Origin: Selenomonadales bacterium
Lineage (GTDB): Bacteria > Bacillota > Negativicutes > Sporomusales > UBA7701
DNA length: 64,000 nt
Assembly: GCA_029975165.1 (NCBI GenBank)
Contig: JARKPR010000047.1
Location: 124,001 to 188,000, forward strand
Direction of reading: 5' to 3'
Part shown: one piece after another, positions 4,721 to 24,963 of the stretch
Numbering within the stretch: the first letter of the stretch is position 1
Layout of the letters: every line of letters starts with the position of its first letter
Notes under the pieces: generated by a model
Told to the model about the DNA's origin: nothing
Database searches by the model: none
What the model saw: only the letters and a program-made list of their open reading frames with translations
Translations under genes and position numbers: made by a program

Positions 4721-4740
4721 GGTGAGTACCACTATTCACC
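4721..4740. promoter_or_regulatory. Inverted repeat upstream of permease operon
   Basis: GGTGA and TCACC half-sites are separated by ten bases, just 15 bp before the GTG start of the permease. The position suits an operator that represses or activates the permease-reductase-thioredoxin operon. No cognate regulator gene is adjacent, and the motif matches no regulator site I can name. Confidence 0.3.
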
Positions 4741-4755
4741 GATGGGAGTTGTCCT

Positions 4756-5805: not shown

Positions 5806-5823
5806 TAAATGAAAGGGAGGCAA

Positions 5824-6594
5824 ATGTTTGATTCAGTCAGTTTCATCGGCTCCGGCCGTGTTGCCCGCATCATGCTGGGCGGTTGGAAGAAAGCCAATGC
5901 CCTACCATCCATCATCCTCGCCTACGACTCGAATCCTTCTGCGGTGGCGACGCTACAGGCGGAGTTTCCGGGCGTTGCCGCGGCAACACTGGACGAAGCG
6001 GCCGGCGCCGATCTGGTCTTTGGCGCGCTGCACCCGCCAGCCATGCCTGAAATGCTGGCGACCATCGCCGGAAAACTGAAAGAAGGAGCGGTCTTCTGTT
6101 CGCTTTCGCCGAAGGTAAAGCTGGCGACGCTCAAGGAGAAGCTGGGCGGCTTTGCCCGCCTGGCACGGATCAATCCGAACTCCCCTGGCATCGTTGGCAA
6201 GGGCTTCAACCCGATAGCCTTTGCCGAGGAAATGCCGGTTGCCGCCCGCAGCGAGCTTCTGAATCTGCTCAAGCCATTGGGGCAATCGCCGCAGGTTGAA
6301 GAAAGACTGCTGGAAAGCTACGCCGTTATCAGCGCCATGGGGCCGACCTATTTCGGATTCCAGTTTGCCGAAGTGGAAAAGCTGGCCAACGCATTTGGTC
6401 TCGACCCTGCGGCCGCGCGCGAGGCTGTGCGTGCCATGCTGCATGGCACGGTCGACATGCTGTTCGCCAGCGATCTGCCGAGGGAGAAGCTGCTTGACCT
6501 GGTACCTGTTCGTCCGCTTGCCGAACAGGAAGGGGAAATCACCGGCATGCTGCAAAAGCAGATCGGGGGAATCTACGCCAAACTCACCAGTTGA
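5824..6594 (+). CDS. ProC-like NAD(P)-binding oxidoreductase
   Basis: A 256-residue protein with an N-terminal Rossmann fold (VSFIGSGRVARIMLGGW, residues 5-21) and the layout of pyrroline-5-carboxylate reductase or coenzyme F420-dependent NADP oxidoreductase families: FGALHPPAMPEML mid-domain, RINPNSPGIVGKG, then a helical C-terminal dimerisation domain. The canonical ProC C-terminal substrate motif is not evident, so a proline role is doubtful. ATG 5824 follows a textbook AAAGGGAGG, hence preferred over the in-frame ATG at 5809. It lies between the permease and the thioredoxin-like gene in an apparent operon. Confidence 0.77.
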   Translation: MFDSVSFIGSGRVARIMLGGWKKANALPSIILAYDSNPSAVATLQAEFPGVAAATLDEAAGADLVFGALHPPAMPEMLATIAGKLKEGAVFCSLSPKVKLATLKEKLGGFARLARINPNSPGIVGKGFNPIAFAEEMPVAARSELLNLLKPLGQSPQVEERLLESYAVISAMGPTYFGFQFAEVEKLANAFGLDPAAAREAVRAMLHGTVDMLFASDLPREKLLDLVPVRPLAEQEGEITGMLQKQIGGIYAKLTS

Positions 6595-6635
6595 TCGAGC
6601 TTTTCCGCCCGTTATCTGTCAAGAAGGAGAAAACC

Positions 6636-6866
6636 ATGAAAAACGTAAAAATTCTGGGCACCGGATGTGCCAACTGCAGGAACACATTGGCACTCGTCGA
6701 ACAGGTGGCCAAGGAGAAAGGTGTCGAAATCCAGTTGGAAAAAGTCGAGGATCTGCCCTCGATCATGGGGTTTGGGGTGATGTCGACGCCGGGGGTTGTG
6801 ATCGACGGGGTGGTCGTGCATGCTGGCGGGGTGCCGGCGAAGAGCAAGGTGGATAGTTGGTTCTGA
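6636..6866 (+). CDS. Thioredoxin-like 'redox-active disulfide protein 2'
   Basis: A 76-residue mini-thioredoxin. The N-terminus MKNVKILGTGCANC carries the redox pair Cys11-x2-Cys14, and VMSTPGVVIDG supplies the cis-proline loop. Family members (TIGR00412-type) often accompany PF03773 permeases. It probably cycles thiols for the permease or its substrate, but that is inference. The start at 6636 follows AAGGAG; the longer frame from 6591 is discarded because it overlaps the preceding stop region and adds non-homologous residues. Confidence 0.87.
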   Translation: MKNVKILGTGCANCRNTLALVEQVAKEKGVEIQLEKVEDLPSIMGFGVMSTPGVVIDGVVVHAGGVPAKSKVDSWF

Positions 6867-6952
6867 ACGCGAGTCCTGAGTCACGGAAGCGTTCGAGGAG
6901 CAGCGGGTCAAACGGAAGCCGGAAATCTGCAGAGTCGTTGATGGAGAAAACA

Positions 6953-7654
6953 ATGAAGAAGATCCAGAAATTCCTGATCGGTGCCGTTTCTGCCGCTGCC
7001 ATGGTCATGGCAGGGTGCGCCGGAAATCCGGCAACATCGGGTGGCACGGCGGTTCCGCCATCGAATTCCGGATTCCTCTCGGACTACTCGAAGCTCAGGC
7101 CCGTTGACGGTGCCGATGGCACCTATCGATATGTCGATGGCAATGCCAATCTGCGCCCGTATGACAAAATCCTGATCGATCCTGTCCAGGTGTTCGTTAC
7201 CCCCGGTCCCGACTACAGCGGTGTGCAACCGGACGTGCTCAAGCGCATGGCGGACGTGTTCCGCATGGAATTCGTCGGGGCGATGCTCTCCGGATACCAC
7301 GTCGTCGAGAAGCCGGGGCCAGACGTTTTGCGTGTCCGGCTGGCCATCACCGGCGTGCAACCGGTCCGGCCGGATCTGACTGCTACCGATTTCCTCCCGA
7401 TCAAGGCCGTATTCAACGTGGCTCGCGACGCGGCGGGTGGGGCGCCGCAAGTCGCGGAAATGTCCGCCGAGGCCGAAGTGCTGGATGCGAATGGCCGAGT
7501 GGTGGGTGCTGCGGTGTCGACGCGCAAGGCCGGCAAGACGCTGCCGCAGGGCGAGAAGATCAAATGGGCCGACTTGCAGACCATCGCGGCGACATGGGCC
7601 AAGGGGTTGCGTCAGCAGATCGATTTTTCACGGGGCTACGCGCCGAGTAAATGA
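6953..7654 (+). CDS. DUF3313-family lipoprotein
   Basis: A 233-residue exported protein. A charged N-terminus MKKIQK, a hydrophobic stretch and the lipobox VMAGC (Cys22) mark a lipoprotein signal. The mature part (YSKLRPVDGADGTYRYVD ... YDKILIDPVQVFV) matches the DUF3313 pattern of envelope lipoproteins of unknown role. ATG 6953 is chosen because GGAG lies six bases upstream, within the codons of a competing upstream ATG at 6941. It is convergent with the sigma-54 activator gene. No function can be assigned. Confidence 0.82.
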   Translation: MKKIQKFLIGAVSAAAMVMAGCAGNPATSGGTAVPPSNSGFLSDYSKLRPVDGADGTYRYVDGNANLRPYDKILIDPVQVFVTPGPDYSGVQPDVLKRMADVFRMEFVGAMLSGYHVVEKPGPDVLRVRLAITGVQPVRPDLTATDFLPIKAVFNVARDAAGGAPQVAEMSAEAEVLDANGRVVGAAVSTRKAGKTLPQGEKIKWADLQTIAATWAKGLRQQIDFSRGYAPSK

Positions 7655-7663
7655 ACTTTAGGC

Positions 7664-7685
7664 GGAGCGGGAGTCTTCCCGCTTC
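7664..7685. terminator. Weak hairpin between convergent genes
   Basis: GCGGGA (7667-7672) and TCCCGC (7677-7682) flank a four-base loop between the ends of the DUF3313 gene and the sigma-54 activator gene. The following stretch is only moderately T-rich, so terminator function is tentative. Confidence 0.4.
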
Positions 7686-7714
7686 CTTGCTTACCGCAGG
7701 TGTACCTGCTTGGC

Positions 7715-9039
<1,325 letters not shown>

Positions 9040-9043
<4 letters not shown>

Positions 9044-10500
9044 TCGGATGATCCTTGCGGGTTCAGCGGGAGAGCGACAACAAAGCGTGTCAGTGTGCTG
9101 GTGGTTTCGGCGCGGATCGCGCCTCTTAACTGCGTTACGATTTGGTAACAGATCCACAAACCGAGTCCGTTGCCGTGCTGTGAAAAGCTGGAGAACGGTT
9201 CGAAAAGCCTGGCCTGGTGTTCCGCGGAAAGCACCTGGCCGTCGTTTTCGACAACGAGGCTCAGTGCTCCCTCGCCGGTGCCGGTCCGGACCGTGACGTG
9301 GCCGTGCTGGCCGGCGGCCTGGATGGCATTGAGCACCAGGTTGATGAGCAGTTGCCGCACCGGGGTGGACGGCAGGTCGAGCGGGTCGCCAAAGTTCGTT
9401 TCCCAGTCGATCTCGACGTTCTGCTTGTGGGCGCTGGGGGCGACCAACAGCATGACATCGTCGATGTCGTGAGCGGTCAGCTGACGGCTGGTTACCTTGG
9501 CTTCCACCAGCAGCGCGGCGACCGTGTCGCGGATCTGGGAGAGTCCGCGTTCCAGCAGGTTGATCGTCTTCTGGCTCAGCGGGTCGGCCGGGCCGTAGCG
9601 CTTCAGGGTGCTCACGGAGTTGAGCATGCCGCCGAGCGGGTTGTTGATTTCGTGGGCGATGCTGGCTGTCAGACGACCGACGGCGGCCATCTTTTCCTGC
9701 TTCACGACTTCCTGCTCGAGCGCGAGCTTTTCCCTCATCGCGTCGAGCATCTGGCGGTAGGCGAGGTAAAGGGCGCCGACTTCGTCACGGTACGGGTACA
9801 GGTGCGGGTCGAGCGGGGTCAGTTCGCCCGCGTTGATGCGGCTCAGGCGCCGCGTGACCAACTGCAGCGGTGCCACCATCCGGCCACCCCAGTACCAGTT
9901 CACCGGCAACAGCACGGCCAGGATGAGCAGCGTGATCCACACCGCGTTGCGGATCGAGCGGTCGAAGCGATGCCGAATCTGATCCTTGTTGTGCGCCACG
10001 ATCAGCGTGCCGATACGAACATTGTCGCTGGCGATGGCGATGGCGATGGGGATGGCGATGAAAAAGTGCGAGGCGATCGTGCTTTCCAGGATCAGGGATG
10101 GGTGTTCCGGGTTGGCGGCAATCTCGCGGTCGAGCGTCTGGAAATCCGCGCCCAGCGAGGACAGTTCGCTCGTCACCCGGTGCTCGTTCGGGTGCGAGGA
10201 GGCAAACACGCGCCGTTCGGCGTCGAGCACGATCAGGCTCTCGGCCAGCGTTGATTCGCTGTCTTCCTTGAAGGGCAGGGAAATCGTTTCAAATGCCTGC
10301 CAGACGTTGTCGTGCAGCAGGGCGGTAAACAACGATCGCGCCATCGTCTGCCCAAGATCCTCGGAATTCTTGACCATGTCCTTGTGCAGGTTGTCCCAGG
10401 ATGTCGCCAGAAAGGAGGCGGACAGCGCCAGCGCCGTCGCCAGGATGAGAACGGCGCCCAGCAGCGGCAGCTTGTACCGGAGGCTGAGATTGAAGAGCAT
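9040..10500 (-). CDS. Membrane sensor histidine kinase of the XSR unit
   Basis: A 486-residue kinase. A first membrane span at about residues 12-32, a periplasmic domain of about 150 residues, a second span near 186-202 and a HAMP-like linker lead to the H-box SIAHEINNPLGG (His283), an N-box (LINLVLNAIQAAG) and the G2 box NGLGLW. The N-rich H-box type is the one usually paired with NtrC-like regulators. It is coupled to the regulator (4-bp overlap) and follows the binding-protein gene by 7 bp. The periplasmic domain includes an alternating Ile-Ala tract encoded by a 6-bp tandem repeat at 10030-10059. Ligand input probably comes through the PhnD-type protein. Confidence 0.92.
10030..10059. repeat. 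Hexanucleotide tandem repeat inside the kinase gene
   Basis: Five consecutive 6-bp units GGCGAT (the fourth is GGGGAT) lie in the coding sequence of the histidine kinase and encode an alternating Ile/Ala run (IAIPIAIAIA) in the sensor domain. Slippage by whole units would keep the reading frame, so the length may vary between strains. Confidence 0.8.
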
Positions 10501-10507
10501 CAGCGGC

Positions 10508-11383
10508 TCACAATTCGCCGAGTTCCCGCATCATCCTGACTACCCCGTCGTACAGGCGCTGCTCGCCGGCAACGAAACCGTCCAGGTTGAGCTTGTCGAG
10601 CAGGGCGCGTCCCGCCGGGTCCTCGTGCATGCCGAACAGCACCTGCTGGAAGGTGTCGAAGTCCTTCTGACTGACCCGGTGATAGGCCACGATCGGGGGG
10701 AAACCGAATTCCTCGGACTTCCAGACGATGCGCGTGCGCGCTACGAGTTTCGGATCGACCTTCTGCAGGCTGTCCCAGACGTAGCTATCCACCGCTGCGC
10801 CTTCGGCGAGGCCGCTGGCCACGGCCTGAATGGCCTTGGCGTGCGACCAGGTGAAGAACGTCTTCTGGAAGTAGGAGCCGGCATCCTGGCCGGCGGCGAT
10901 CAGGGCGTGACGGGGGACGACGTAACCCGTGTTCGAATGCGGGTCGGCGTAGGCGAAGACCTTGCCTTTCAGGTCGAGGATCGATTTCGTTTGCGTATCC
11001 TTGTCCGGAACGATCAGGTAGGAGCGGTACAGCGGCTTCTGCTGATACGACGCGACAGCCAGCAGGCGCACGGCCTTGCCGAGGGCGAGGTAGGGGTAGT
11101 CGCACAGCCAGGCGAAATCGAGACTGCCCTTGTCGATCAGGTCCATGGTTTCCCGATAGCTGTCCCGCTGGATGAACACGACGGGACGCTGCAGTTTCCT
11201 TTCGAGATAAATCTTCCATTCGGCCAGCATGGAGTGCTGGTTATGCAGGAAAGCAGGAGTCATTCCCACGCGGTACGGGCGAAGTGGCTCGGACGCGCTG
11301 GCCTCGGCAATCGGAGCGAGGAGAGCAGCAAGAACCAGGAGCAGGGCCGCGATCGCCCTTTTTGTCAGGGGCATGAGGTGCAT
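10508..11383 (-). CDS. PhnD/AioX-type periplasmic substrate-binding protein
   Basis: A 291-residue exported protein (signal peptide to about residue 31) of the phosphate/phosphonate-binding PhnD family. The motif LDFAWLCDYPYL places a single mature-region cysteine, Cys94, where family members bind ligand. Agrobacterium AioX uses one cysteine (Cys108) to bind arsenite, so Cys94 is a candidate arsenite ligand. No ABC transporter genes accompany it; instead it heads an operon with the kinase and sigma-54 activator, so it likely serves as a ligand-presenting sensor. It diverges from the cytochrome c-arrAB operon. The bound ligand could be arsenite, arsenate or another oxyanion; the sequence alone does not decide. 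Confidence 0.88.
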   Translation of the reverse strand: MHLMPLTKRAIAALLLVLAALLAPIAEASASEPLRPYRVGMTPAFLHNQHSMLAEWKIYLERKLQRPVVFIQRDSYRETMDLIDKGSLDFAWLCDYPYLALGKAVRLLAVASYQQKPLYRSYLIVPDKDTQTKSILDLKGKVFAYADPHSNTGYVVPRHALIAAGQDAGSYFQKTFFTWSHAKAIQAVASGLAEGAAVDSYVWDSLQKVDPKLVARTRIVWKSEEFGFPPIVAYHRVSQKDFDTFQQVLFGMHEDPAGRALLDKLNLDGFVAGEQRLYDGVVRMMRELGEL

Positions 11384-11422
11384 GGGACATCCTTTCGCTC
11401 GAATGAAGCAAGGAATCGATCG

Positions 11423-11438
11423 GTTACCGTTTGGTGAC
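11423..11438. promoter_or_regulatory. Candidate activator-binding palindrome 1
   Basis: The 16-bp imperfect palindrome GTTACCG-tt-TGGTGAC (one of two with the same 7-2-7 geometry) lies about 190 bp upstream of the -12/-24 promoter of the arr-like operon, where enhancer sites for NtrC-type proteins usually occur. It also lies just upstream of the divergent binding-protein gene, allowing autoregulation. Confidence 0.5.
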
Positions 11439-11455
11439 GCGCATTTCTGCCAGGG

Positions 11456-11471
11456 GTTACGGAACCGTTAC
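11456..11471. promoter_or_regulatory. Candidate activator-binding palindrome 2
   Basis: GTTACGG-aa-CCGTTAC has six of seven arm positions symmetric. Its centre is 33 bp from that of the first palindrome, close to three helical turns, so two activator dimers would sit on the same DNA face. Confidence 0.55.
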
Positions 11472-11623
11472 ATCTTGCCACAGCCCTGGATCTTCTGTCC
11501 GGGAGTCCTGACTCCGATATTTCGCAGACAGACACGACTGGTTTCGCAGATGGTCCAAAGGATCAATCGGTTACACCATCATACCGGCCAACCGTCGCGC
11601 TTGAGAAGACGAGATCGTCAAGC

Positions 11624-11637
11624 GGCACGATACTTGC
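11624..11637 (+). promoter_or_regulatory. Sigma-54 (-24/-12) promoter of the cytochrome c-arrAB operon
   Basis: GGCACGATACTTGC matches the sigma-54 consensus (TGGCACG-N4-TTGC) except for the first base: GG at 11624-11625 and GC at 11636-11637 are exactly ten bases apart. Transcription should start near 11648, giving a leader of about 40 nt before the ATG at 11690. The adjacent gene set encodes a sigma-54 activator, which strengthens the call. Confidence 0.85.
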
Positions 11638-11689
11638 GCTAGGGTTCCCGACCACAATCATTTTGGCTTTATTGCATGGAGCCCCTTAG

Positions 11690-12028
11690 ATGAAAACACC
11701 CCTGATCCTCGCGACCGTCGGCCTTGCCGCGACCCTGCTCAGTATTCCCGTACAGGCCGCCGATGCGGCAGCCGCTGAAGCCCTGGCCAAGAAGGAAGGC
11801 TGCCTGAAGTGCCATGCCGTGGATAAGAAGAAGGACGCCATCTCGTTGAAGGAGGTGGCCAAGAAGTATGCCGGCAAGCCGGACGGCGAAGCCAAGATCC
11901 TGGCCCAGATCACCACCGGCCAGAAGGTCAAGCTCGAGGACGGCACCGAGGAGGAGCACAAGGTCATCAAGACCAAGGACAAGGCCGAAGTGACCAACAT
12001 GATCCAGTGGATACTGTCGTTGAAATAG
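11690..12028 (+). CDS. Small monoheme c-type cytochrome, first gene of the arr-like operon
   Basis: A 112-residue periplasmic protein with a signal peptide (cleavage after VQA, about residue 23) and one heme site, Cys38-Leu-Lys-Cys41-His42. Lys and Glu are very frequent. The usual class I distal-ligand loop (Pro/Met-rich) is absent; the equivalent region reads LEDGTEEEHKVI, so His rather than Met might be the sixth ligand, or the heme may be five-coordinate. GGAG lies eight bases before the ATG. It is first behind the sigma-54 promoter and 43 bp ahead of arrA, so it most likely exchanges electrons with the molybdoenzyme. Confidence 0.88.
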   Translation: MKTPLILATVGLAATLLSIPVQAADAAAAEALAKKEGCLKCHAVDKKKDAISLKEVAKKYAGKPDGEAKILAQITTGQKVKLEDGTEEEHKVIKTKDKAEVTNMIQWILSLK

Positions 12029-12071
12029 GGACAACGAGAATACCGACCAGTAAGAAGAGGGGTACAAACAA

Positions 12072-14630
12072 ATGAAACTGACACGACGCTCATTTATCCA
12101 GTATTCAGCGGCAACGGCCTGCCTGCTGGCGGCCGGGTGTTCGACCACGGCCTCGCGGCCGGTTTCGGCGGCGATGATTCCGCGCCGGGCCAACGGCAGC
12201 AAGGCGCCACAGGGCGAGTGGATCGGCACGACCTGCCAGGGTTGCACGCAGTGGTGCGCCCTGCAGCTTTTCGTGCAGGATGGCCGCGCCGTGCGCGTGC
12301 GCGGCAACCCGCTGTCGAAGACCAACCACGGCTATTGCTGCCCGCGCGGGCACCTGATTCCGCAGCAGGTCTACGATCCGGACCGCATCAAGGTGCCGAT
12401 GAAGCGAACCAATCCGGTCAAGGGACGCGGCGTCGATCCGAAGTTCGTGCCGATCACCTGGGACGAGGCCATGGATACGGTCGCCGAAAAGATGATGGAA
12501 CTGCGGCGTGCCAAGGAAGGGCACAAGTTCATGTACATGCGCGGCCGCTATTCCTCCACGTCGACCGAGTTGCTGTACGGCACGCTGCCGAAGATCTACG
12601 GCACGGGGAATTATTTCTCGCACAGCGCCATCTGCGCCGAAGCCGAAAAGATGGGCCCTGGATTGACCCAAGGGTTCTTCGGCTATCGCGACTACGATCT
12701 GACCAAGACCAACTGCCTGGTGCTCTGGGGCGCGGATCCCCTGGCGTCCAACCGCATGGTGCCGAACGCGATCCACTATTTCCACGAGATCATGGCGCGC
12801 GGCACCATCGTCGCCGTCGATCCGCGTCTGTCGAACGTCGCGGCGAAAGCTCACGAATGGCTGCCGATCAAGCCGGGTACCGATGGCGCGCTGGCCGGGG
12901 CGATTGCCCATGTGCTGTTGACGGAGGGACTGTGGAATCGTGAATTCGTCGGTGACTTCAAGTTCGGCAACAACCGTTTCGTCGCAGGCCAAACCGTTGA
13001 CGAATCCGCGTTCGAGGAAAAGGAGACCTTTGGCCTCGTCAAGTGGTGGAACCTGGAACTGAAGGACCGTACCCCGCAATGGGCCGAGAAGGAAACCCTG
13101 ATCCCCGCCGACCAGATCGTGCGAGTGGCCCGCGCCATGGGCAAGGCCGCACCGAAGACCATTGTCTGGATGGGGCCGGGTGCGGCGATGACGCCGCGTG
13201 GCACGTATGCCGCCATGGCGGTCCACGCGCTGAACGGCATCCTGGGCTCGATCGACGTCGAAGGCGGCGTATGGCAGTCGAGCAGCGTGCCGATCGCGGC
13301 CTTCCCGAAGGCCGACGCCTATGTGGATGATTTGGCCAAGGAAATGGCCAAGGGCAAGAAACTTGACGGTCGCGGCGCCAAGGACATGCCGGCGATGATG
13401 AATGCACGTCCCGGCAGCGGCGTGGTGACCAACAACGTGGCCAATGGCCTGCTGAAGGATCCCGGCGCGGTCAAGGTGTTCATGTCGTCGTGGTCGAATT
13501 TCAACTTCTCGTGTACCGGCGCGGAACGTTGGGACAAGGCGATGGCCAAGGTGCCGTTCTTCGTGCACATGGTGACCAATGCCTCGGAAATGACCCAGTT
13601 CGCCGATATCGTCCTGCCGGCCACGTTCAATTCGGCCGAGGGTTGGTCGGTCGTCTCCAACATGGGCAATGGTTATGGCTACGCTTCGCTGCAGCAGGGC
13701 GCAGTCAAGCGCTTGTGGGACGTGAAGCAGGAAGAAACCGAAGTGATGTGGCTGCTGGCCGAGAAGCTCAAGCAAAAGGGCTTCCCGAACCTGTTCGACT
13801 ACTACTCGAAGGAATTCAAGGATCCGGAAACCGGCAAGTCTCCGACCAATGCGCTGGAGTTCTCGATCATCGCGGCGAAGATGAGCAGCGTGTCGCTGTG
13901 GAAGCCCAAGGAGCCGCTCAAGGGCGATGCGCCGTTGAAGGGCTGGGACGACTTCCGTGCCCGGGGCATGTTCAGCGGGCCGAAATACACGCTGAAAAAA
14001 GGCTGGGGCGGCAAGTTCGCTACGGCGACCAAAAAGTTCGAGTTCTACAGTGAGACGGCGAAGAAGGGATTGCTGGAACACGCCAAGAAGCACGAGACGA
14101 CGGTCGACGACATCCTGGCCGTGTCCGGCTACGTGGCCAAGGGTGAACTGGCCTTCGTGCCGCACTACGAGCCGCCCAAGCGGCACGGCAGCGAAGCCGA
14201 GTACCCGTTCACCTTCATCGACTACAAGTCGCGCCTGAACCGCGAAGGGCGATCGGCGAACACGGCTTGGTACCAGGAGTTCAAGAAAGTCGATCCGGGC
14301 GATGTGTCGTGGGAGGACGTGCTGAAAATGAATCCGGCGGATGGTGCGAAACTGGGACTCAAGACCGGGGACACGGTCAAGGTCACCTCGCCGAGCGGGT
14401 CGATCGTGACCACGCTCAAGCTGTGGGAAGGCGTGCGTCCGGGCACGGTAACCAAGTGCTACGGGCAGGGCCACTGGGCCTACGGGCGCGTGGCGGCGAA
14501 GGAGTACGGCAAGGCGCCGCGCGGGGGCAACAACAACGAAATCCTGGTTGACGACTACGACCGGCTGTCTGGCGCCACCGCGCGCAACGGCGGGTTTACC
14601 GGCGTCCGTATCCAGAAGGTTACGGCCTGA
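12072..14630 (+). CDS. arrA: ArrA-like respiratory arsenate reductase catalytic subunit (Mo-bisMGD, DMSO reductase superfamily)
   Basis: An 852-residue periplasmic molybdoenzyme. The Tat motif TRRSFIQ opens a signal ending in the lipobox LAAGC (Cys23), so it may be a lipoprotein. The cluster motif Cys55-x2-Cys58-x3-Cys62-x27-Cys90 has ArrA spacing. The RGRY motif (157-160) is described for ArrA, whereas ArxA has a GRGWG-type motif. His184, the presumed Mo ligand Cys188, Lys193 and Tyr205 align with Shewanella ArrA His189, Cys193, Lys198 and Tyr210 at a constant offset of five (numbering from memory). The predicted reaction is arsenate to arsenite, fed by ArrB and the upstream cytochrome. No ArrC quinol anchor is encoded. 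Antimonate, selenate or sulfur oxyanions, or operation in the oxidative direction, cannot be excluded. Confidence 0.85.
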   Translation: MKLTRRSFIQYSAATACLLAAGCSTTASRPVSAAMIPRRANGSKAPQGEWIGTTCQGCTQWCALQLFVQDGRAVRVRGNPLSKTNHGYCCPRGHLIPQQVYDPDRIKVPMKRTNPVKGRGVDPKFVPITWDEAMDTVAEKMMELRRAKEGHKFMYMRGRYSSTSTELLYGTLPKIYGTGNYFSHSAICAEAEKMGPGLTQGFFGYRDYDLTKTNCLVLWGADPLASNRMVPNAIHYFHEIMARGTIVAVDPRLSNVAAKAHEWLPIKPGTDGALAGAIAHVLLTEGLWNREFVGDFKFGNNRFVAGQTVDESAFEEKETFGLVKWWNLELKDRTPQWAEKETLIPADQIVRVARAMGKAAPKTIVWMGPGAAMTPRGTYAAMAVHALNGILGSIDVEGGVWQSSSVPIAAFPKADAYVDDLAKEMAKGKKLDGRGAKDMPAMMNARPGSGVVTNNVANGLLKDPGAVKVFMSSWSNFNFSCTGAERWDKAMAKVPFFVHMVTNASEMTQFADIVLPATFNSAEGWSVVSNMGNGYGYASLQQGAVKRLWDVKQEETEVMWLLAEKLKQKGFPNLFDYYSKEFKDPETGKSPTNALEFSIIAAKMSSVSLWKPKEPLKGDAPLKGWDDFRARGMFSGPKYTLKKGWGGKFATATKKFEFYSETAKKGLLEHAKKHETTVDDILAVSGYVAKGELAFVPHYEPPKRHGSEAEYPFTFIDYKSRLNREGRSANTAWYQEFKKVDPGDVSWEDVLKMNPADGAKLGLKTGDTVKVTSPSGSIVTTLKLWEGVRPGTVTKCYGQGHWAYGRVAAKEYGKAPRGGNNNEILVDDYDRLSGATARNGGFTGVRIQKVTA

Positions 14631-14653
14631 TCCACGAGCTCAAGGAGATAAAA

Positions 14654-15430
14654 ATGCAATTTGGAATGGTTATCGACCTGCAGCGCTGCGTGGGATGCGG
14701 CGCCTGTGCCTTCGCCTGCAAGGCGGAAAATACGACGCGCGATCGTGACGAGGAAGACGGTCAGAGCTACAACTGGGCCGACTTCCTGATGAAGACGGAA
14801 GGGACGTTCCCGAATACCACGCACTGGGTCATGCCGGTGTTGTGCAACCACTGTTCGGAAGCGGCCTGTGTCGAAGTCTGCCCGGTGAAGCCGAACAAGG
14901 CGATGTACAAGACGCCCGAGGGCATCACCATGCACGATCCGTCGCTGTGCATCGGCTGCCGCGAGTGCCAGACGGCGTGCCCGTACAGCAACGAGGAGCT
15001 GGATGCCACCAGCCTCAGCGGCGAGACGTATAGCGTGATCAGCTTCAACGGGCGCTACAAGCCGCTGCATCCGAAGTGGGAGGACAACACGCCGCTGATC
15101 GCCGGGGCTACCGCCTCCGGCGCCGAAACGGCGCAAAAGGCCGGCGTTCCGGTTCCTTCCATGAACGCTTTCGAGTCGAAGGATGTCGGCCCGTTGCGCA
15201 AGAAGCGCATCGTCGAGAAATGCACCTTCTGCGCGCACCGCACGCTCAACGGGCTGCAACCGGCGTGCGTCGAAGCCTGTCCGTCGCAGGCCCGCATCTT
15301 CGGCGACCTTGATGATGCCAATTCGCCCGCCGCGAAGATCCTGGCGGCGAAGAAGACTTTCGTCCTCAAGCCGGAAAAGGGCACGCGGCCGAACGTCTAT
15401 TACGTCGGAAAGTACAGCGCAAGGTCTTGA
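14654..15430 (+). CDS. arrB: ArrB-like four-cluster ferredoxin subunit
   Basis: A 258-residue iron-sulfur subunit without its own signal, expected to be exported with ArrA. Four cysteine groups for [4Fe-4S] clusters are complete: CVGCGACAFAC (from residue 12), CNHCSEAACVEVC, CIGCRECQTAC and CTFCAH with a distal ACVEAC. The opening MQFGMVIDLQRCVGCGAC and the closing region (CPSQARIFGDLDD) resemble ArrB. Compared with the ~235-residue ArrB I remember, it has insertions near residues 30-38 and 110-125. It starts 23 bp after arrA with an AAGGAG ribosome-binding site and is followed by a strong terminator. Confidence 0.88.
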   Translation: MQFGMVIDLQRCVGCGACAFACKAENTTRDRDEEDGQSYNWADFLMKTEGTFPNTTHWVMPVLCNHCSEAACVEVCPVKPNKAMYKTPEGITMHDPSLCIGCRECQTACPYSNEELDATSLSGETYSVISFNGRYKPLHPKWEDNTPLIAGATASGAETAQKAGVPVPSMNAFESKDVGPLRKKRIVEKCTFCAHRTLNGLQPACVEACPSQARIFGDLDDANSPAAKILAAKKTFVLKPEKGTRPNVYYVGKYSARS

Positions 15431-15447
15431 GCCATAATTGCCTGAAC

Positions 15448-15475
15448 GGGGCGAGCGATCCTCGCCCCTTTTTTT
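15448..15475 (+). terminator. Intrinsic terminator after arrB
   Basis: GGGGCGAG (15448-15455) and CTCGCCCC (15461-15468) form a perfect 8-bp stem with a five-base loop, followed immediately by seven T residues. It lies between arrB and the torD-like gene, so the chaperone gene is expressed by read-through or from its own promoter. Confidence 0.93.
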
Positions 15476-15489
15476 GTTTCGGAGAAACG

Positions 15490-16119
15490 ATGCCAAACCA
15501 AGCATTCGACAGGGCCGCCGCGCTGGCCGACGTGAGCCGCCTGCTGGCGGCCTGCTACTACGAACCCGGTCCGGAATTCGCCGAGGAGCGGCTCTTCGAC
15601 GCGATGATCGAAGCGGCACAGCGGATTGATGCGGCACTGGCCGAGAAGGCGTCGCTGCTGAAAACAGCCTTCGAGGCCGATTCGCAGCAGGAGCTTCTGG
15701 TCGACTACGCGCATCTCTTCCTCGGGCCGGTGGGCTTGCTGGCGCTGCCCTACGAGTCGGCGTGGCTGGAGAAGCAAGGGGTGCCGTCTTCAGAGGCGAC
15801 GCAGGCCCTGCTCGATTTGTTCGCCGATGGCGGCTTCGAGGTCGACCCGGAGTTCCGCGACTTGCCCGATCATGTTGCCGTCGAACTAGAATTCCTCTAT
15901 ACGACGTGCTTCAGGATGGCGGCGGCCATCCGTGACGGCGATCAGGCCGCAATCGTCGAGCTGACCGACTTGCGGCAACGCCTGATTGACCTGCACCTCG
16001 GACGTTGGTGCCCGGATTTTTGCGCAGCGGTCAATGCGGGGGCGCAGTGCCGCTTCTACCGGGAACTGGCCGACCTGACGGTGCAGTTCATCGCCGTGGC
16101 GCGCCGCGAAGGCGCCTGA
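15490..16119 (+). CDS. TorD/DmsD-family molybdoenzyme maturation chaperone
   Basis: A 209-residue cytoplasmic helical protein. VSRLLAACYYEPG at the N-terminus and LLVDYAHLFLGPVGLLALPYESAWLE at about residues 60-85 are hallmarks of the TorD family (the Y-x-x-L-F-x-G-P core). It should bind the Tat signal of the ArrA-like subunit and hold it until the Mo cofactor is inserted. ATG 15490 follows GGAGAA; a longer frame from 15427 would translate through the terminator hairpin and is rejected. C-terminal WCPDFCAAV contains two cysteines. Confidence 0.87.
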   Translation: MPNQAFDRAAALADVSRLLAACYYEPGPEFAEERLFDAMIEAAQRIDAALAEKASLLKTAFEADSQQELLVDYAHLFLGPVGLLALPYESAWLEKQGVPSSEATQALLDLFADGGFEVDPEFRDLPDHVAVELEFLYTTCFRMAAAIRDGDQAAIVELTDLRQRLIDLHLGRWCPDFCAAVNAGAQCRFYRELADLTVQFIAVARREGA

Positions 16120-16142
16120 CAATTCCGTTACATTTATCTCCC

Positions 16143-16652
16143 ATGACTCCTCCCGTATTCATTTTTGTTGGGCATTCCGGTTCCGGAAAGACGACGCTGG
16201 TCGAAAAACTGCTCCCGGAACTGAGCCGGCGCGGACGTCGCGTGGCGACCATCAAGCACGCGCATCACCAGGTGAAGCTCGATACCGAGGGCAAGGACAG
16301 CTGGCGTTACAAGAATGCCGGTGCCGTGATGAGCATGCTGGTCACCACTGATGCCCTGCAGTTGGTGGCCGACGCGGTCGACCGGCGTGAGCCGCTGCAA
16401 CTGGCCGAGCGCTTTCTGGGCGAGGCGGACATGGTGCTGGCCGAGGGGTTTTCGCACGCGCCGGGGCCGAAGATCGAGATCCTGCGCCGTGCCTGCGGCA
16501 AGCCGCCGCGCTGTGCGCTTGAGGATGGCCTGATCGCCATCGTTACCGATTGTCCGGAGATCTACCCGGAGTTGCCGCATTTCGGGCTCGACGAACTTGC
16601 CGGCCTGGCGGACTTTCTTCTCGGTTATTCCGAAAAAGCGGCGACTTTGTAA
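16143..16652 (+). CDS. mobB: Molybdopterin-guanine dinucleotide biosynthesis adaptor MobB
   Basis: A 169-residue GTP-binding protein with P-loop GHSGSGKTTL (residues 9-18), KHAHHQVKLDTEGKDSWRY and the VLAEGFSH motif, all typical of MobB. It assists MobA in forming the bis-MGD cofactor required by the ArrA-like enzyme, which explains its position 23 bp after the chaperone gene. The ATG at 16143 is the family N-terminus; the longer frame reads back into torD. Confidence 0.93.
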   Translation: MTPPVFIFVGHSGSGKTTLVEKLLPELSRRGRRVATIKHAHHQVKLDTEGKDSWRYKNAGAVMSMLVTTDALQLVADAVDRREPLQLAERFLGEADMVLAEGFSHAPGPKIEILRRACGKPPRCALEDGLIAIVTDCPEIYPELPHFGLDELAGLADFLLGYSEKAATL

Positions 16653-16665
16653 CGCACTGTAACGC
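16649..16665. repeat. Direct repeat GTAACGC upstream of the Gly-rich protein gene
   Basis: Two GTAACGC copies with a 10-bp period overlap the mobB stop codon. GTAAC is the half-site core of the two palindromes before the arr-like operon read on the other strand, so these may be additional weak activator sites. The rest of the 150-bp gap to 16803 shows no clear sigma-54 or sigma-70 promoter. Confidence 0.25.
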
Positions 16666-16802
16666 GCTGCCGATTTGCAATCTGGCGATGCAAAACGGCG
16701 GTGCGCCGCAACACGACGCTTACATCACACGGTTTTAATGGCGCCATGGAGCAACGGAATGGATCGAAGCTCCGGTCTGGTTGAATCGAAAAGGAGATTG
16801 CC

Positions 16803-17249
16803 ATGAAAACCACATTGATCATCAAGCGTTTTGTACAAGTTGTTTTGCTGGGCACCGCTGTGGTGTCGACGGCAATGGCCCAACCCGGTCCCGGCTGGGG
16901 AGGCGGTTGGGGCGGCGGGTGCGGCATGCAACGCGGCATGGGCGGAGGCGGCGGTTGGGGCATGGGGCCCGGCGGCGGTCGCGGCATGGGTTACGGGATG
17001 GGTTATGGTGCCGGGCCGGGCGCTGCGGTCAACCAAAACCTGACGCGCGGCTGGGAATTGACGACGCCGGAAGAGCGTACGGCGCAACAGATCAAGATGC
17101 GGGCGGTGAAGACCTACGATGAGTGTACCGCCGTGCAGACCGAACATCGAGGGATTCTGGAAACACGTGCCAAGGAGAAGGGTCTGACGCTGGTCACCCC
17201 GCGTATCAGCCCATGTGACAACCTCAAGGCACGCGGCCTGATCAAGTAG
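16803..17249 (+). CDS. Secreted Gly/Met-rich small protein of unknown function
   Basis: A 148-residue protein with a signal peptide ending VSTAMA (about residue 26). Residues 27-75 are a low-complexity Gly/Trp/Met tract (repeats of GGG, GMG, GYGMGYG). A compact C-terminal part (residues 80-148) has two cysteines (YDECTAV, ISPCDN) that may form a disulfide; a third Cys lies in the Gly-rich tract. AAGGAG precedes the ATG. Methionine-rich periplasmic segments sometimes bind copper, but there is no proof here. I do not recognise the family. It may be cotranscribed with the next gene, 33 bp away. Confidence 0.7.
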   Translation: MKTTLIIKRFVQVVLLGTAVVSTAMAQPGPGWGGGWGGGCGMQRGMGGGGGWGMGPGGGRGMGYGMGYGAGPGAAVNQNLTRGWELTTPEERTAQQIKMRAVKTYDECTAVQTEHRGILETRAKEKGLTLVTPRISPCDNLKARGLIK

Positions 17250-17282
17250 CTGATCGACTATCTTCGACGCGGGAGTCCGGCC

Positions 17283-17990
17283 ATGCTCAAACCCTTCGTG
17301 CTTTCCCTATGCCTGATTACGGCGGCCGGATCGGCGGTTGCCGCCGATCCGGTGACCGACGCCATGCAGAAGACCTACGCGCCGTATCGCGTGGCGTTGT
17401 TCAAGACCAATAACAAGGCCCAGGAGGACTCCCGGCAGGCGGTTCTCCAGGCGCAGCAGGGCTGGGCCCGGATGGCCGCGGAATTCGGCGCCAATCCGCC
17501 CGCGCCGTATGCCGGTGATTCGGAGTTTGGCGCTTCGCTGGCCGCGGTCAGCAAGGTGTACGTCAAGGCGCTGGAAGAAATCGAACGCAACCAGCTCACG
17601 GAAGCGCACGAGACCCTGGAAGAGGTCCGCGACATCATGGCCGACATGCGCCGGCGCAATCAGGTCGTCGTCTTCAGCGACCACATGAACGCCTACCACG
17701 CCGAGATGGAGCATCTCCTGAGCCATGGAGAAAAGCTCCTAGCTGCCCCGAATGGAATGCTGGAACTGACAGCCAAAACGGGGGCGCTCGATTACCTGGC
17801 CGGGAGGCTGAAAACCGAGGCGCCGGCCGGCCTACAGCAGAACGAGGAATTCGTCGGTCTGCTCAAGTCCGTCGAGAAGTCCGTGGCGGATCTCAAAGCC
17901 GCACTGTTCGCCCAGGATGCGGCTAAAGTGAAAGAGTCCATCGGCAAGCTGAAGGGGCCGTATTCGAGAATGTTCATGAAATTCGGCTGA
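17283..17990 (+). CDS. Exported helical protein of unknown function
   Basis: A 235-residue protein with a signal peptide (cleavage after SAVAA, near residue 21). The mature part is predicted helical, rich in Ala, Lys and Glu, without cysteines or heme motifs. A His/Met-rich segment SDHMNAYHAEMEHLLSHGEK at about residues 132-151 could bind a metal. The pattern resembles four-helix-bundle periplasmic proteins such as cytochrome c-prime or b562 folds without heme attachment, but I cannot name the family. It precedes the ABC transporter operon. Confidence 0.7.
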   Translation: MLKPFVLSLCLITAAGSAVAADPVTDAMQKTYAPYRVALFKTNNKAQEDSRQAVLQAQQGWARMAAEFGANPPAPYAGDSEFGASLAAVSKVYVKALEEIERNQLTEAHETLEEVRDIMADMRRRNQVVVFSDHMNAYHAEMEHLLSHGEKLLAAPNGMLELTAKTGALDYLAGRLKTEAPAGLQQNEEFVGLLKSVEKSVADLKAALFAQDAAKVKESIGKLKGPYSRMFMKFG

Positions 17991-18030
17991 GACCGGACGA
18001 AGAGCAACTCCGATGCAAGGGAAGTTCGCC

Positions 18031-18056
18031 GTCATCCCGGCCTCCGCCGGGATGAC
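18031..18056. repeat. Dispersed palindromic repeat (GTCATCCCGGC type), copy 1
   Basis: GTCATCCCGGC (18031-18041) and its exact complement (18046-18056) form an 11-bp stem with a four-base loop in the gap before the ABC ATPase gene. It resembles the short extragenic palindromes common in proteobacteria. It may act as a terminator or mRNA-stability element. Confidence 0.7.
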
Positions 18057-18105
18057 GCATCGCCGGGTTCGTTGCCCGGAAAATACAAAAACGAGGACGA
18101 CAGCC

Positions 18106-18795
18106 ATGGCGTTGATCCAGGCAGATAACATCACCAAAAGTTACCGCGTCGGCGACATGAATGTCCCGGCGCTCAAAGGGCTCAGCTTCGAGATCGGCGA
18201 GGGGGCGTTTGCCGCCTTCGTCGGCCCGTCGGGCAGCGGCAAGACGACATTGCTCAATTTGCTCGGCTGTCTCGATCATCCGTCCAGCGGCACGCTGAAG
18301 GTCAATGGCACAGATATCAGCACGTTGTCGCGCAGCGCGGCGGCGACCTTCCGCGGCGAAAACCTCGGATTCATCTTTCAGGATTTCAACCTGGTGCCCG
18401 TGCTGAGCGCCTATGAGAACATCGAATACCCGCTGCTGATGGTGCGCGGCTGGTCGCCGGAGAAGCGGCGCGAGCGGGTGGAGAGAATGATCGCCGCCGT
18501 GGGCATGACTGAGCACGCGCACAAGCGGCCGGATCAGCTTTCCGGCGGACAGAAGCAGCGGGTTGCCGTGGCCCGGGCCTTGGTCGGCGAGCCGAAGCTG
18601 GTGCTGGCCGACGAGCCGACGGCGAATCTCGATCACGATACCGCCTATCGCATCCTGGAGCTGATGAAATCGATGCGCGACAGCTTCGGCACGTCGTTCA
18701 TCTTTTCCACGCACGACCCGAAGATCATGGGTGAAGCCGAACTGACCTTTACCCTTGAGGACGGCCGCCTGGTGCAGCAAGGAGGTGAGGCATGA
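18106..18795 (+). CDS. ABC transporter ATP-binding protein, LolD/MacB class
   Basis: A 229-residue ATPase with Walker A GPSGSGKTT (40-48), the signature LSGGQKQRV, Walker B LVLADEPTANLD and the H-loop STHD. The N-terminus (ITKSYRVGDMNVPALKGLSFEI) is typical of the LolD/MacB/FtsE subfamily, which powers envelope remodelling or lipoprotein extraction rather than solute uptake. ATG 18106 fits the family start; a longer frame would read through the palindromic repeat. The gene overlaps the permease gene by four bases. Confidence 0.92.
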   Translation: MALIQADNITKSYRVGDMNVPALKGLSFEIGEGAFAAFVGPSGSGKTTLLNLLGCLDHPSSGTLKVNGTDISTLSRSAAATFRGENLGFIFQDFNLVPVLSAYENIEYPLLMVRGWSPEKRRERVERMIAAVGMTEHAHKRPDQLSGGQKQRVAVARALVGEPKLVLADEPTANLDHDTAYRILELMKSMRDSFGTSFIFSTHDPKIMGEAELTFTLEDGRLVQQGGEA

Positions 18796-20036
18796 CCTCC
18801 ACGCTGAAACTGGCCTGGCGCAACCTGACGCGCTATCGTCGCCGGACGCTGCTCACCGCGTTGCTGATCATGCTCGGCGTGATGGCACTTTTGCTTTTCG
18901 TCGCCGCCGCCGGATCATTCAAGCAGACGATGATCGGTTCGATCACCGACAGCATGCTCGGGCACCTGCAGATCCACCGCCGGGGCTATACGGCATCGAT
19001 CGACAACCTGCCGCTCAATCTGAACCTGCAGCCCAATGCCGTCGGCAAGATCGAGAGCGCGCTCAAGGCGGAACCGGAGATCGCCGCCTATTCGCTGCGC
19101 GTCAAGCTCGGCGCGATGTTCAGCAACTTCACCGAGAATACCAGCGTACGCCTGAACGGCATCGACCCGGCCGCCGAGGATGCGACGGTGCCGGCCCTGC
19201 GTCAGCGCATCAACGATGGCGACAGGACGGGACCGCTGGTGGCGCCCGGCAAGGTGCTGATTCCGACACTGATCGCGCGCGGCATGAAGGTCAAGGTGGG
19301 TGATGCCGTGGTGCTGGTGGTGACCAATGCTTCCGGCTCGGTGAACGGCAAGAACTTCGTCGTCAGCGGCATCCTCGATGGCGTAACCGGGCCGGGCGGG
19401 CGTGACGGATACATCCATATCGACGATGCACGCGATTTACTGCGCATGGACAAGCCCGAGGTCATGGAAGTCGCGGTGCGGCTCAAGTCGCTGAAGTCGC
19501 TGGCCGCGGTGCAGCAGCGCCTGAACGCCAAGCTCGACGAAATCCAGAACAAGGAAGGCAAGCCGGCCACCGAACTTCATCTGTGGTCGGATCTGTCGCC
19601 GTTCGCCAATATCGTGCGCATGATCGACATGATGACGCTGTTTATCCGCATCATGCTGGTGGCCATTGTGCTGGTCAGCGTGATGAACGTGATGCTGATG
19701 GCCGTCTACGAACGCATCCGCGAGATCGGAACCCTCGCGGCCATTGGCACGCAGCCGGGCAAACTGATGGCCATCTTCCTGGCCGAAGGGCTGCTCCTTG
19801 GGCTGGCTGGCGCGGCGGCGGGGATTGCGTTGAGCTATGCCCTGGTCGGGTACCTCAACCTCAATCCGGTTGTGTTTGCCTTCGGCCGTGAGCAGATCAC
19901 GTTGCGTCCCGTGCTCGAACTGGCCGAAGTGGCCGGCGTGCTCGGCCTGGCCGTCCTCGTCTCGGCGCTGGCCAGCCTGCAACCCGCCTGGCGCGCTGCC
20001 CGCATGGATCCGATCCAGGCCCTGCGTCACGTTTGA
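18792..20036 (+). CDS. ABC transporter permease, FtsX/LolE-like
   Basis: A 414-residue inner-membrane protein. One N-terminal span (about 22-42), a large periplasmic MacB-like domain (about 45-270) and three C-terminal spans form the 1+3 layout of FtsX/MacB/LolE permeases; the motif YERIREIGTLAAIGTQPG between spans two and three is conserved. Translationally coupled to its ATPase (ATGA overlap). With the LolA-like protein and the outer-membrane barrel downstream it suggests a dedicated system that moves a lipid or lipoprotein to the outer membrane. Cargo unknown. Confidence 0.9.
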   Translation: MTSTLKLAWRNLTRYRRRTLLTALLIMLGVMALLLFVAAAGSFKQTMIGSITDSMLGHLQIHRRGYTASIDNLPLNLNLQPNAVGKIESALKAEPEIAAYSLRVKLGAMFSNFTENTSVRLNGIDPAAEDATVPALRQRINDGDRTGPLVAPGKVLIPTLIARGMKVKVGDAVVLVVTNASGSVNGKNFVVSGILDGVTGPGGRDGYIHIDDARDLLRMDKPEVMEVAVRLKSLKSLAAVQQRLNAKLDEIQNKEGKPATELHLWSDLSPFANIVRMIDMMTLFIRIMLVAIVLVSVMNVMLMAVYERIREIGTLAAIGTQPGKLMAIFLAEGLLLGLAGAAAGIALSYALVGYLNLNPVVFAFGREQITLRPVLELAEVAGVLGLAVLVSALASLQPAWRAARMDPIQALRHV

Positions 20037-20050
20037 TTTCGGAGAAAACG

Positions 20051-20785
20051 ATGAAAGCGACCAAACTGCTGGCCCTCGTGGCACTGTGCCTCCCCTTGCT
20101 GGCTTCCGCCGTCGATGGCGTCGAACTGCTGAAGAAGGTCGACCGCAACCTGGAACCGGAGTCGTACGAGTCCTACCGCAAGCTGATCAATATCGAGCCG
20201 AACGGGGCGAAGAAGGAGTTCGTCATCTACTCGGTGAAGAAGGGCAAGGACCAGGTGGCGACGCTGTTCCTCTCGCCAGCCAGCGACAAGGGGCGCAGCA
20301 CGCTGCGCCAGGGCGACAACATGTGGCTGTACATCCCCAATGTCGGCAAGCCGATGCGCATCACCAGCCTGCAGTCGGTGACCGGTGGCGTATTCAATAA
20401 CGCCGACATCATGCGCCTCGACTACGCCGTGGAGTACGACGTGAAGTCGGTGGAGGAGAAAGAGGGGAACTACATACTCGACCTCAAGGCCAAGACCGGC
20501 GAGGTGGCCTATGACCGGCTGGTGATGACGGTGGACAAGAAGCTCGTCCTGCCCACCGAGATCGTTGCCTATGCCTCCAGCGGCATGCTCATGAAGACCC
20601 TGTATTTCAAGGATATCAAGGACTTCGGCGGCGGTATCAAGCGCCCGGGGACGATCGAGACCGACAGCCCGCTGTACAAGGGCTACAAGTCGGTGATGCT
20701 CTACTCGGGCCTGAAGAAGAAGGACTTCCCTGACGAAGTATTCACGCAGGGCTTCATGTCGCGCATGGAAGAGTTGCGCAAGTGA
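20051..20785 (+). CDS. Outer membrane lipoprotein-sorting (LolA-like) protein
   Basis: A 244-residue periplasmic protein with a signal peptide (to LLASA, about residue 19). The sequence KLINIEPNGAKKEFVIYSVKKGKDQVATLFLSP and the segment GDNMWLYIPNVGKPMRI match the 'outer membrane lipoprotein-sorting protein' family with a LolA-like half-barrel, distinct from housekeeping LolA. It starts 14 bp after the permease with a GGAG site. Presumably shuttles a hydrophobic cargo between the FtsX-like transporter and the outer membrane. Confidence 0.87.
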   Translation: MKATKLLALVALCLPLLASAVDGVELLKKVDRNLEPESYESYRKLINIEPNGAKKEFVIYSVKKGKDQVATLFLSPASDKGRSTLRQGDNMWLYIPNVGKPMRITSLQSVTGGVFNNADIMRLDYAVEYDVKSVEEKEGNYILDLKAKTGEVAYDRLVMTVDKKLVLPTEIVAYASSGMLMKTLYFKDIKDFGGGIKRPGTIETDSPLYKGYKSVMLYSGLKKKDFPDEVFTQGFMSRMEELRK

Positions 20786-20802
20786 TGGTGCGCAAACGTT
20801 CC

Positions 20803-20827
20803 GTCATCCCGGCGAAGGCCGGGGTCC
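20803..20827. repeat. Dispersed palindromic repeat (GTCATCCCGGC type), copy 2
   Basis: A second copy of the extragenic element seen at 18031, with GTCATCCCGGC then a GAA loop and GGCCGGGGTCC. It lies between the LolA-like gene and the outer-membrane protein gene and is the reason for choosing the downstream start of the latter. Confidence 0.7.
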
Positions 20828-20850
20828 GGGCGGTGGGACGGAATCAGGAA

Positions 20851-22140
20851 ATGAATTCGGCCCTTTTGATCTGCACCGTGGCACTCATGCTCGCCGCGCC
20901 GGCCGTTGCCGACGATTTCACCTTCGATGCCAGCGAATTTGACAAGAAGACCGTCGAGTTTTCCGGCTACCTGGAGCAGAAGGAAGAGGGGCTGAAAATG
21001 CGCAGCGACAGCCCCGGCTACAAGCTCGCCTATCCCGGCGAAACGCAGCGCCATCATCTGCTGCGCAATACGACGACGCTGGAACTCTCCGGCAAGCTGA
21101 ACCTTGATCCGGTCGTCGTCGATATGCGTGCCCAGGCCTTTCATGCCGATGACCAACTAATCACCACGTCCGACCGGGGCACGGTGATGGAAGGCGGGGT
21201 ACGCTGGAGCGCCGGCCCCGGACTCACCGTGGATGCAGGCAAGCGGGTCCAGCGCTGGGGCAAGGGGTATGCGTGGAGTCCGGTCGGCTTCATCGAGCGC
21301 CCGAAGGATGCGTCCGATCCTCAGTCGTCGCGGGAGGGCTTCGTCATGGCCAGCGCGGAATGGACGAAAAGCCTTGACGGGCCGGTCAGCGCCGTGGGCC
21401 TCAGCGGCTTCGTCGTACCGACCGACGGAAGCAGCCTCAACAAGGATTTCGGCGTGGAACGGGATCTCAACCCGGCCGCCAAGCTGTACCTCCTGGCGTG
21501 GGATACCGACATCGATTTTCTGTGGCGCGGCCAGGGCGCCAAGCCGCAGAGCTTCGGCTTCGACTTCTCGCGCAACATCACGTCGGCGCTCGAAGTGCAC
21601 GGTGAATGGGCGCGCTTCCGGGATGCGCCGCACAATACCGTCTCGGCCGCCGGCGTTACAGGCCAGACCGAATCCGATGCGACTTCATGGCTGCTCGGTC
21701 TGCGCTACCTGACGCAGAACGAAGTCACCTGGATCGTCGAGTATTACCGCAACGGCAACGGCTACGACGCGCGCGAACTGGATGACTACTACACCTTTCT
21801 CGACAAGGCGCTGGCGGGTGGCGCCGCTCCGGCACTGGCGGACAAGGCGCGCGCGGTGGCCCGGTCGGGCTATGGGCGGGTCAATCCGGGTACCGACTAT
21901 GTGTACGCGAAGGCCAGCGTCAGCGAGCCTTTCGGCTGGGTCTATGGATCCGCCGCGCTGACCGCCATGACCAGCCTGGAGGACCGGAGCTGGCAACTCG
22001 TCCCGGAAGTCAGTTACACCGGGTTCAACAATGTCGAATTGCGTGCGCGGGCGTTTGTCCTGCACGGTGCGTCACATACCGAGTTTGGCGAAAAACCGGC
22101 CAGCCGACGCATCGAAGTCTATGCAAGATTTTTCTTCTGA
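20851..22140 (+). CDS. Outer-membrane beta-barrel protein of the ABC/LolA-like cluster
   Basis: A 429-residue protein with a signal peptide MNSALLICTVALMLAAPAVA (residues 1-20). Alternating strands rich in aromatic and polar residues and the C-terminal IEVYARFFF with terminal Phe indicate a beta-barrel recognised by BAM. ATG 20851 is preferred: the longer frame from 20782 would place a repeat-derived peptide ahead of the signal. It closes the operon of ATPase, FtsX-like permease and LolA-like protein. I do not recognise a specific substrate. Confidence 0.8.
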   Translation: MNSALLICTVALMLAAPAVADDFTFDASEFDKKTVEFSGYLEQKEEGLKMRSDSPGYKLAYPGETQRHHLLRNTTTLELSGKLNLDPVVVDMRAQAFHADDQLITTSDRGTVMEGGVRWSAGPGLTVDAGKRVQRWGKGYAWSPVGFIERPKDASDPQSSREGFVMASAEWTKSLDGPVSAVGLSGFVVPTDGSSLNKDFGVERDLNPAAKLYLLAWDTDIDFLWRGQGAKPQSFGFDFSRNITSALEVHGEWARFRDAPHNTVSAAGVTGQTESDATSWLLGLRYLTQNEVTWIVEYYRNGNGYDARELDDYYTFLDKALAGGAAPALADKARAVARSGYGRVNPGTDYVYAKASVSEPFGWVYGSAALTAMTSLEDRSWQLVPEVSYTGFNNVELRARAFVLHGASHTEFGEKPASRRIEVYARFFF

Positions 22141-24932: not shown

Positions 24933-24963
24933 TACAAGACAATCTACTCTCCAGGAGATAAAC

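Follow-up and report, generated by a model that had tools for sequence, protein, structure and literature searches.

The window (the whole 64,000-nucleotide stretch of contig JARKPR010000047.1 analysed here) carried two facing gene sets: a minus-strand group, arrR-arrS-arrX (7715-11383), and a plus-strand group, cytochrome c-arrA-arrB-arrD-mobB (11690-16652; Table 1). The plus-strand set is read, with a probability of about one half for the whole statement including its electron path, as the respiratory arsenate reductase operon of a Propionivibrio-like betaproteobacterium. The substrate would be arsenate, the reaction would run in the direction of reduction, and the divergent sensor would bind an arsenic oxyanion. 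An earlier note on this DNA had named a cytochrome c, a Tat-dependent molybdoenzyme, a ferredoxin, a TorD-like chaperone and MobB facing a PhnD-type binding protein (X), a kinase (S) and a regulator (R); all were present, arrS and arrR lying beyond the interval 10508-16652 which that note described. All genes were under purifying selection relative to locus L178, whose ArrA was 95% identical (ratio of nonsynonymous to synonymous substitution rates 0.05-0.16), and the locus is therefore no chance reading.

The catalytic protein is in all likelihood an ArrA-type arsenate respiratory reductase. Its closest solved structure was Shewanella ArrA (6cz7), and it carried the cysteines Cys55-x2-Cys58-x3-Cys62-x27-Cys90, RGRY at 157-160, and His184, Cys188, Lys193 and Tyr205. 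All of these matched Shewanella ArrA residues numbered higher by five (numbering of PMC10654088), an offset that the earlier note had given for the last four. The His, Cys and Tyr were also kept in both ArxA rows of the alignment and the Lys in one of the two, so that among these features only RGRY separates ArrA from ArxA. The literature distinguishes ArrA, with (R/K)GRY, from ArxA, with XGRGWG (PMC6549141); RGRY was present in 89/89 Arr rows and in neither ArxA row, and both ArxA rows had YGRGWG. The window protein had no XGRGWG motif and lay outside the ArxA clade, which sets it apart from ArxA arsenite oxidases.

In a tree of 97 proteins, AnrA and SrdA not among them, the window protein fell deep inside ArrA, within a betaproteobacterial clade of 21 rows (Shimodaira-Hasegawa-like approximate likelihood ratio support 100) that was sister to a Geobacteraceae-containing clade; ArrA of Shewanella sp. 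ANA-3 was also inside ArrA, and ArxA and other molybdoenzymes branched outside. The score against the NCBIfam ArrA model NF041714 was below the 1600 bits required for annotation, a limit that governs naming and does not define the enzyme biologically. ArrA-clade proteins of Bacillus, Arcobacter, Sulfurospirillaceae, Geobacteraceae and Sulfuritalea scored 961-1130 bits, ArxA scored 438-470 bits, and among the proteins tested only two from Shewanella passed. Arsenate respiration is reported as demonstrated in Sulfuritalea hydrogenivorans sk43H (PMC6397845); its genus was placed in the same ArrA clade by locus L036 (77% identical), the sequence of sk43H itself not being compared. Tree position, RGRY, the nearest solved structure and the presence of this genus in the clade support the arsenate-respiring enzyme proposed earlier, and to judge from them it is very probable that a freshwater betaproteobacterium uses these genes to respire arsenate.

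Positions 4072-20332 of the window were 99.98% identical over 16.3 kb to a contig of the Propionivibrio genome G425, and the tetranucleotide composition of the window was Propionivibrio-like; this arrA was carried by 21/399 genomes in the family of G425. The assembly holding the window (contig G000:C4) had Bacillota-like kin, and a genome listed as of the same phylum had an arr locus 93% identical to that of Bacillus sp. ISL-41. A far part of the contig had no match to G425, and no 16S was found in the genome bin of the window. The contig was probably mis-binned or chimeric, and because the bin is doubtful it was not used for host physiology.

No NrfD/PsrC-type ArrC was found in the arr locus, as the earlier note had stated, although this is no novelty: two-subunit Arr without ArrC is published and common, and species may differ in its coupling to the quinone pool (PMC2500031). 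Within 4 kb of arr and on the same strand as the operon, an NrfD-type gene occurred in 0/35 loci of the betaproteobacterial clade and in 25/59 others, and an MtoD-like cytochrome c conversely in 12/35 and 0/59, counts that are descriptive only because the loci share ancestry and some are cut by contig ends. Among the 12 loci the cytochrome lay on either side of arrABD. Seven loci encoded, within 5 kb of arr, a nine-haem protein fused to a cytochrome b with six transmembrane segments, and L037 and L044 had a heptahaem protein and a PhsC-like cytochrome b upstream of arrA.

The small cytochrome c of the operon is an MtoD-type class I cytochrome c with predicted bis-His ligation. Its closest solved relative was MtoD of Sideroxydans lithotrophicus ES-1 (4XXL), also a small class I cytochrome with a distal His for Met; the window protein had one CxxCH and a His at the alignment position of His95, the distal ligand in MtoD, and this His was conserved across the arr-linked homologues. 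In MtoD two His residues ligate the haem, and its potential is +155 mV (PMC4412085). The MtoD gene lies with mtoAB and the gene of a tetrahaem quinol oxidoreductase, whereas that of the window cytochrome accompanies a molybdoenzyme gene; the partners of MtoD are unsettled (PMC13390432).

A second copy of this cytochrome gene was found in G425 as the last gene of an operon encoding an MtrA-like multihaem protein, an MtrB-like barrel, a heptahaem protein and a cytochrome b (Mtr names assigned by inspection), and second copies in G426, G741 and G818 were likewise downstream of cytochrome b. The arr-linked copy of G426 (locus L023) was also preceded by cytochrome b, in the order cytochrome b-C-arrA-arrB-arrD. 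Both G426 contigs start at an identical base within cytochrome b, but a difference of about 2% between the copies shows that they are not a single sequence assembled twice. In its mature part the window copy was 98.5-99.3% identical in DNA to the second copies of G425 and G818, but only 92.6% identical to its positional orthologue in G818; flanks of the window copy and the second copy were unrelated and signal peptides less similar. Within G426 the copies were 98.5% alike, yet only about 86% identical to the copies of the window. Gene conversion between arr-linked and second copies would be the simplest reading; homogenisation was not universal, as the two copies of G818 were 91.9% alike. Gene conversion in turn suggests that both copies may share partners.

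The proposed path begins with the divergent ArrX-S-R unit (XSR), which would detect a periplasmic arsenic oxyanion and switch on the operon, transcribed probably from the sigma-54 promoter at 11623. ArrA and ArrB would be exported together in soluble form. Instead of passing through an ArrC anchor, quinol electrons would exit via a membrane module of cytochrome b and multihaem c, made up of the heptahaem protein and PhsC-like cytochrome b, whose genes lie beside arr in some relatives and at another site in the near-identical Propionivibrio genome. The MtoD-like cytochrome would carry them from this module to ArrB and on to the molybdenum site, where ArrA would reduce arsenate to arsenite. For the path from quinol to arsenate taken by itself, the odds are about even. 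The earlier suggestion that the small cytochrome replaces a quinol-oxidising ArrC did not hold as worded, since a soluble-type monohaem protein cannot itself be the quinol oxidase; what survives is a possible shuttle to one, and the protein may be better read as linking ArrAB to the cytochrome b/multihaem module.

Several points weigh against this path. The As(V)/As(III) couple lies at +60 mV (PMC2500031), so that at the potential of MtoD the cytochrome would donate electrons uphill under standard conditions, unless it differs from MtoD. Sideroxydans MtoD showed no interaction with MtoA or ImoA (PMC13390432), about two thirds of the betaproteobacterial loci had no such cytochrome within 4 kb (some being cut by contig ends), and the X sensor grouped with arsenite-binding AioX and ArxX. 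The many loci with no nearby cytochrome would also suit a direct supply of ArrAB by a NapC/CymA-type tetrahaem quinol dehydrogenase encoded elsewhere in the genome, the small cytochrome being a bystander or serving another client. CymA feeds ArrAB in Shewanella (PMC2500031), and in L141 one MtoD-like cytochrome sat between NapB- and NapC-like genes. Direct supply is nevertheless rather unlikely, given that the cytochrome stood beside arrABD in 12 loci and in 0/59 outside the clade, and that the window copy heads the operon and has a mature part near-identical to that encoded in the cytochrome operon.

The sensor bears on the direction of the reaction. The best solved relatives of X were AioX (6esv, E 7.9e-56) and ArrX (6x6b, E 6.6e-36), and of the AioX/ArrX/ArxX pocket set (Tyr88, Cys106, Tyr131, Ser161, Ser163, His192, Asp210) six of seven residues were identical, Cys106 included, with Thr for Ser163; the AioX-like unit described earlier was thus confirmed. 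The X proteins of betaproteobacterial arr loci grouped with AioX and ArxX (support 99), kept the TPxF loop of AioX/ArxX and had Thr for Ser163 in all rows. Their place in this group is, on sequence grounds, the less usual feature. An XSR unit on arr is not, contrary to what had been supposed: arrXSR has been described in Firmicutes, Epsilonproteobacteria and Chrysiogenetes, in work that also demonstrated that ArrX binds arsenate (PMC5908839), and an X homologue was found in 30/79 non-Arx loci scanned. The arr loci of Geobacteraceae-like genomes and L053 (L038:2435, L041:3715, L053:4048, L074:3845) had a clearly distinct PhnD-type protein by a kinase and regulator; with Gly and Lys instead of Cys106 and Asp210, it is by its residues a sensor of another kind. 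The candidate sigma-54 element facing the operon would fit the NtrC-type regulator; it was not significant in a window-wide scan and by itself is weak evidence, drawing its weight only from similar elements in the matching gap of most relatives with divergent XSR.

Because the sensor is of AioX/ArxX type, its ligand may be either arsenite or arsenate, and arsenite oxidation by the enzyme was weighed as well. The ArrA-type enzyme would then act mainly as an arsenite oxidase, like Arx and Aio, and the MtoD-like cytochrome would deliver the electrons to an oxidase, into nitrate respiration or out of the cell. A c-type cytochrome is the usual electron acceptor of Aio, and one near +155 mV would accept arsenite electrons well. 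Tested members of the AioX/ArxX group bind arsenite, but X trees track the organism more than the enzyme (PMC5908839), and RGRY, the position within ArrA rather than ArxA, and the demonstrated arsenate respiration of a member of a clade genus make arsenite oxidation very unlikely as the main function. Antimonate, selenate or a sulfur oxyanion as main substrate is more improbable still: ArrAB has also been counted among antimonate reductases (PMC11521347) and AnrA and SrdA were outside the rows of the tree, but the full ArrA pocket with RGRY, the clade position and the adjoining sensor of arsenic type point to arsenate.

Among named systems, ArrAB of Shewanella sp. ANA-3 (6CZ7) resembled the window enzyme in full-length alignment, the same Cys pattern, RGRY, His, Cys, Lys and Tyr, and two subunits without ArrC, at about 50% ArrA identity. 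Shewanella, however, uses CymA and its scanned loci had no XSR, whereas in the window the MtoD-like cytochrome heads the operon and XSR is divergent. The arrA of Burkholderiaceae and Rhodocyclaceae is already published (PMC11283718), and their arrAB, including that of Sulfuritalea, share the ArrA clade, a TorD-like arrD and the lack of ArrC; these published arr were screened for arrDE (PMC11283718, PMC6397845), whereas no ArrE was recognised beside the window arr. AioXSR, ArxXSR and ArrXSR have the same three-part unit, kept pocket residues and NtrC-type regulator, but the window pairs an X of the AioX/ArxX branch, with Thr for Ser163, with an ArrA. A plasmid search gave one ArxA as its sole match. 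ArxA of Cereibacter azotoformans pORIO3 and of Thioalkalivibrio AKL19 likewise has XSR by a related molybdoenzyme, a ferredoxin and a TorD-like gene; it differs in YGRGWG, branching outside Arr, an NrfD-type subunit and an extra ferredoxin.

Table 1. Features of the arr locus, with window coordinates, strand and supporting evidence.
Feature	Position	Strand	Evidence
arrR, NtrC-type sigma-54 response regulator	7715..9157 (start probably near 9043)	-	Pfam Response_reg, Sigma54_activat, HTH_8; arr-adjacent orthologues in relatives
arrS, membrane sensor histidine kinase	9040..10500	-	Pfam HAMP, HisKA, HATPase_c
arrX, periplasmic PhnD-type sensor, AioX/ArrX/ArxX subfamily, AioX/ArxX branch	10508..11383	-	solved relatives, pocket residues, tree
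candidate sigma-54 promoter CGGCACGATACTTGCG	11623..11638	+	9/11 consensus positions; ~52 bases upstream of cytochrome c start
MtoD-like periplasmic monohaem cytochrome c, conserved His replacing usual Met ligand	11690..12028	+	MtoD 4xxl E 2.9e-26; alignment
arrA, molybdopterin catalytic subunit, Tat signal, RGRY, 852 aa	12072..14630	+	6cz7 E 1.8e-276; NF041714 1046.8 bits; tree
arrB, four-cluster [4Fe-4S] ferredoxin subunit, 16 Cys in four groups	14654..15430	+	NF041715 E 3.6e-74, 249.2 bits, cut-off 450
arrD, TorD-like chaperone	about 15487..16119	+	PRK04976 TorD E 7.8e-20; PF02613
mobB, molybdopterin-guanine dinucleotide synthesis adaptor	16140..16652	+	TIGR00176 117.4 bits, above cut-off

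Other genes of the window lay on both sides of the locus. At 22263-26118 were an octahaem tetrathionate-reductase-family cytochrome (TIGR04315, 645 bits, cut-off 375), a PhsC-like cytochrome b, a small CxxCH protein and a triple-rhodanese protein; a sigma-54-type regulator came next (26581-27942). A related octahaem/cytochrome b pair was immediately upstream of arrA in L055 and L088. The window pair (22263-24543) was considered as the quinol dehydrogenase of arr and rejected; it was 60-75% identical to copies on other contigs of relatives and 46-51% to arr-linked ones, and is therefore treated as a neighbour. An ABC transporter ATPase, a permease, a LolA-like protein and a 452-aa protein with no Pfam match occupied 18013-22140; in L023 and L093 the arr/cytochrome cluster is likewise followed by the ATPase and permease (87 and 79% identical in L093). 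An ArsP_1-type permease and a Thioredoxin_3 protein were near the regulator (4756-6866), and the arx plasmid pORIO3 had permease and thioredoxin-family genes downstream of arx. A PF09459 ethylbenzene-dehydrogenase-type haem-binding protein was at 49274-50317, and a similar one was seen by eye between cytochrome b and arrA in L044 (L044:6791-7864).

It is conceivable, though quite unlikely, that betaproteobacterial Arr shares a periplasmic cytochrome c with extracellular electron transfer of Mtr/Mto type, which would join arsenic to an extracellular couple such as iron or solid surfaces. One shared MtoD-like pool would then serve arsenate reduction fed by electrons taken up outside the cell, or the export of electrons released in arsenite oxidation.

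The new point appears to be the recurring module of MtoD-like cytochrome c and cytochrome b/multihaem protein at ArrC-less betaproteobacterial arr; no role of a cytochrome is described in the parts seen of two papers on that arr (PMC11283718, PMC6397845). The link of two-subunit, ArrC-less Arr to the quinone pool had not been settled in general, CymA of Shewanella being the case understood in detail (PMC2500031), and members of the betaproteobacterial clade are reported as dominant among the arsenate reducers of mine tailings (PMC11283718). The module supplies named candidate genes for the electron supply of ArrC-less enzymes. Arr may in turn be a client of MtoD-type cytochromes; recent work did not confirm the partners that had been supposed for these (PMC13390432).

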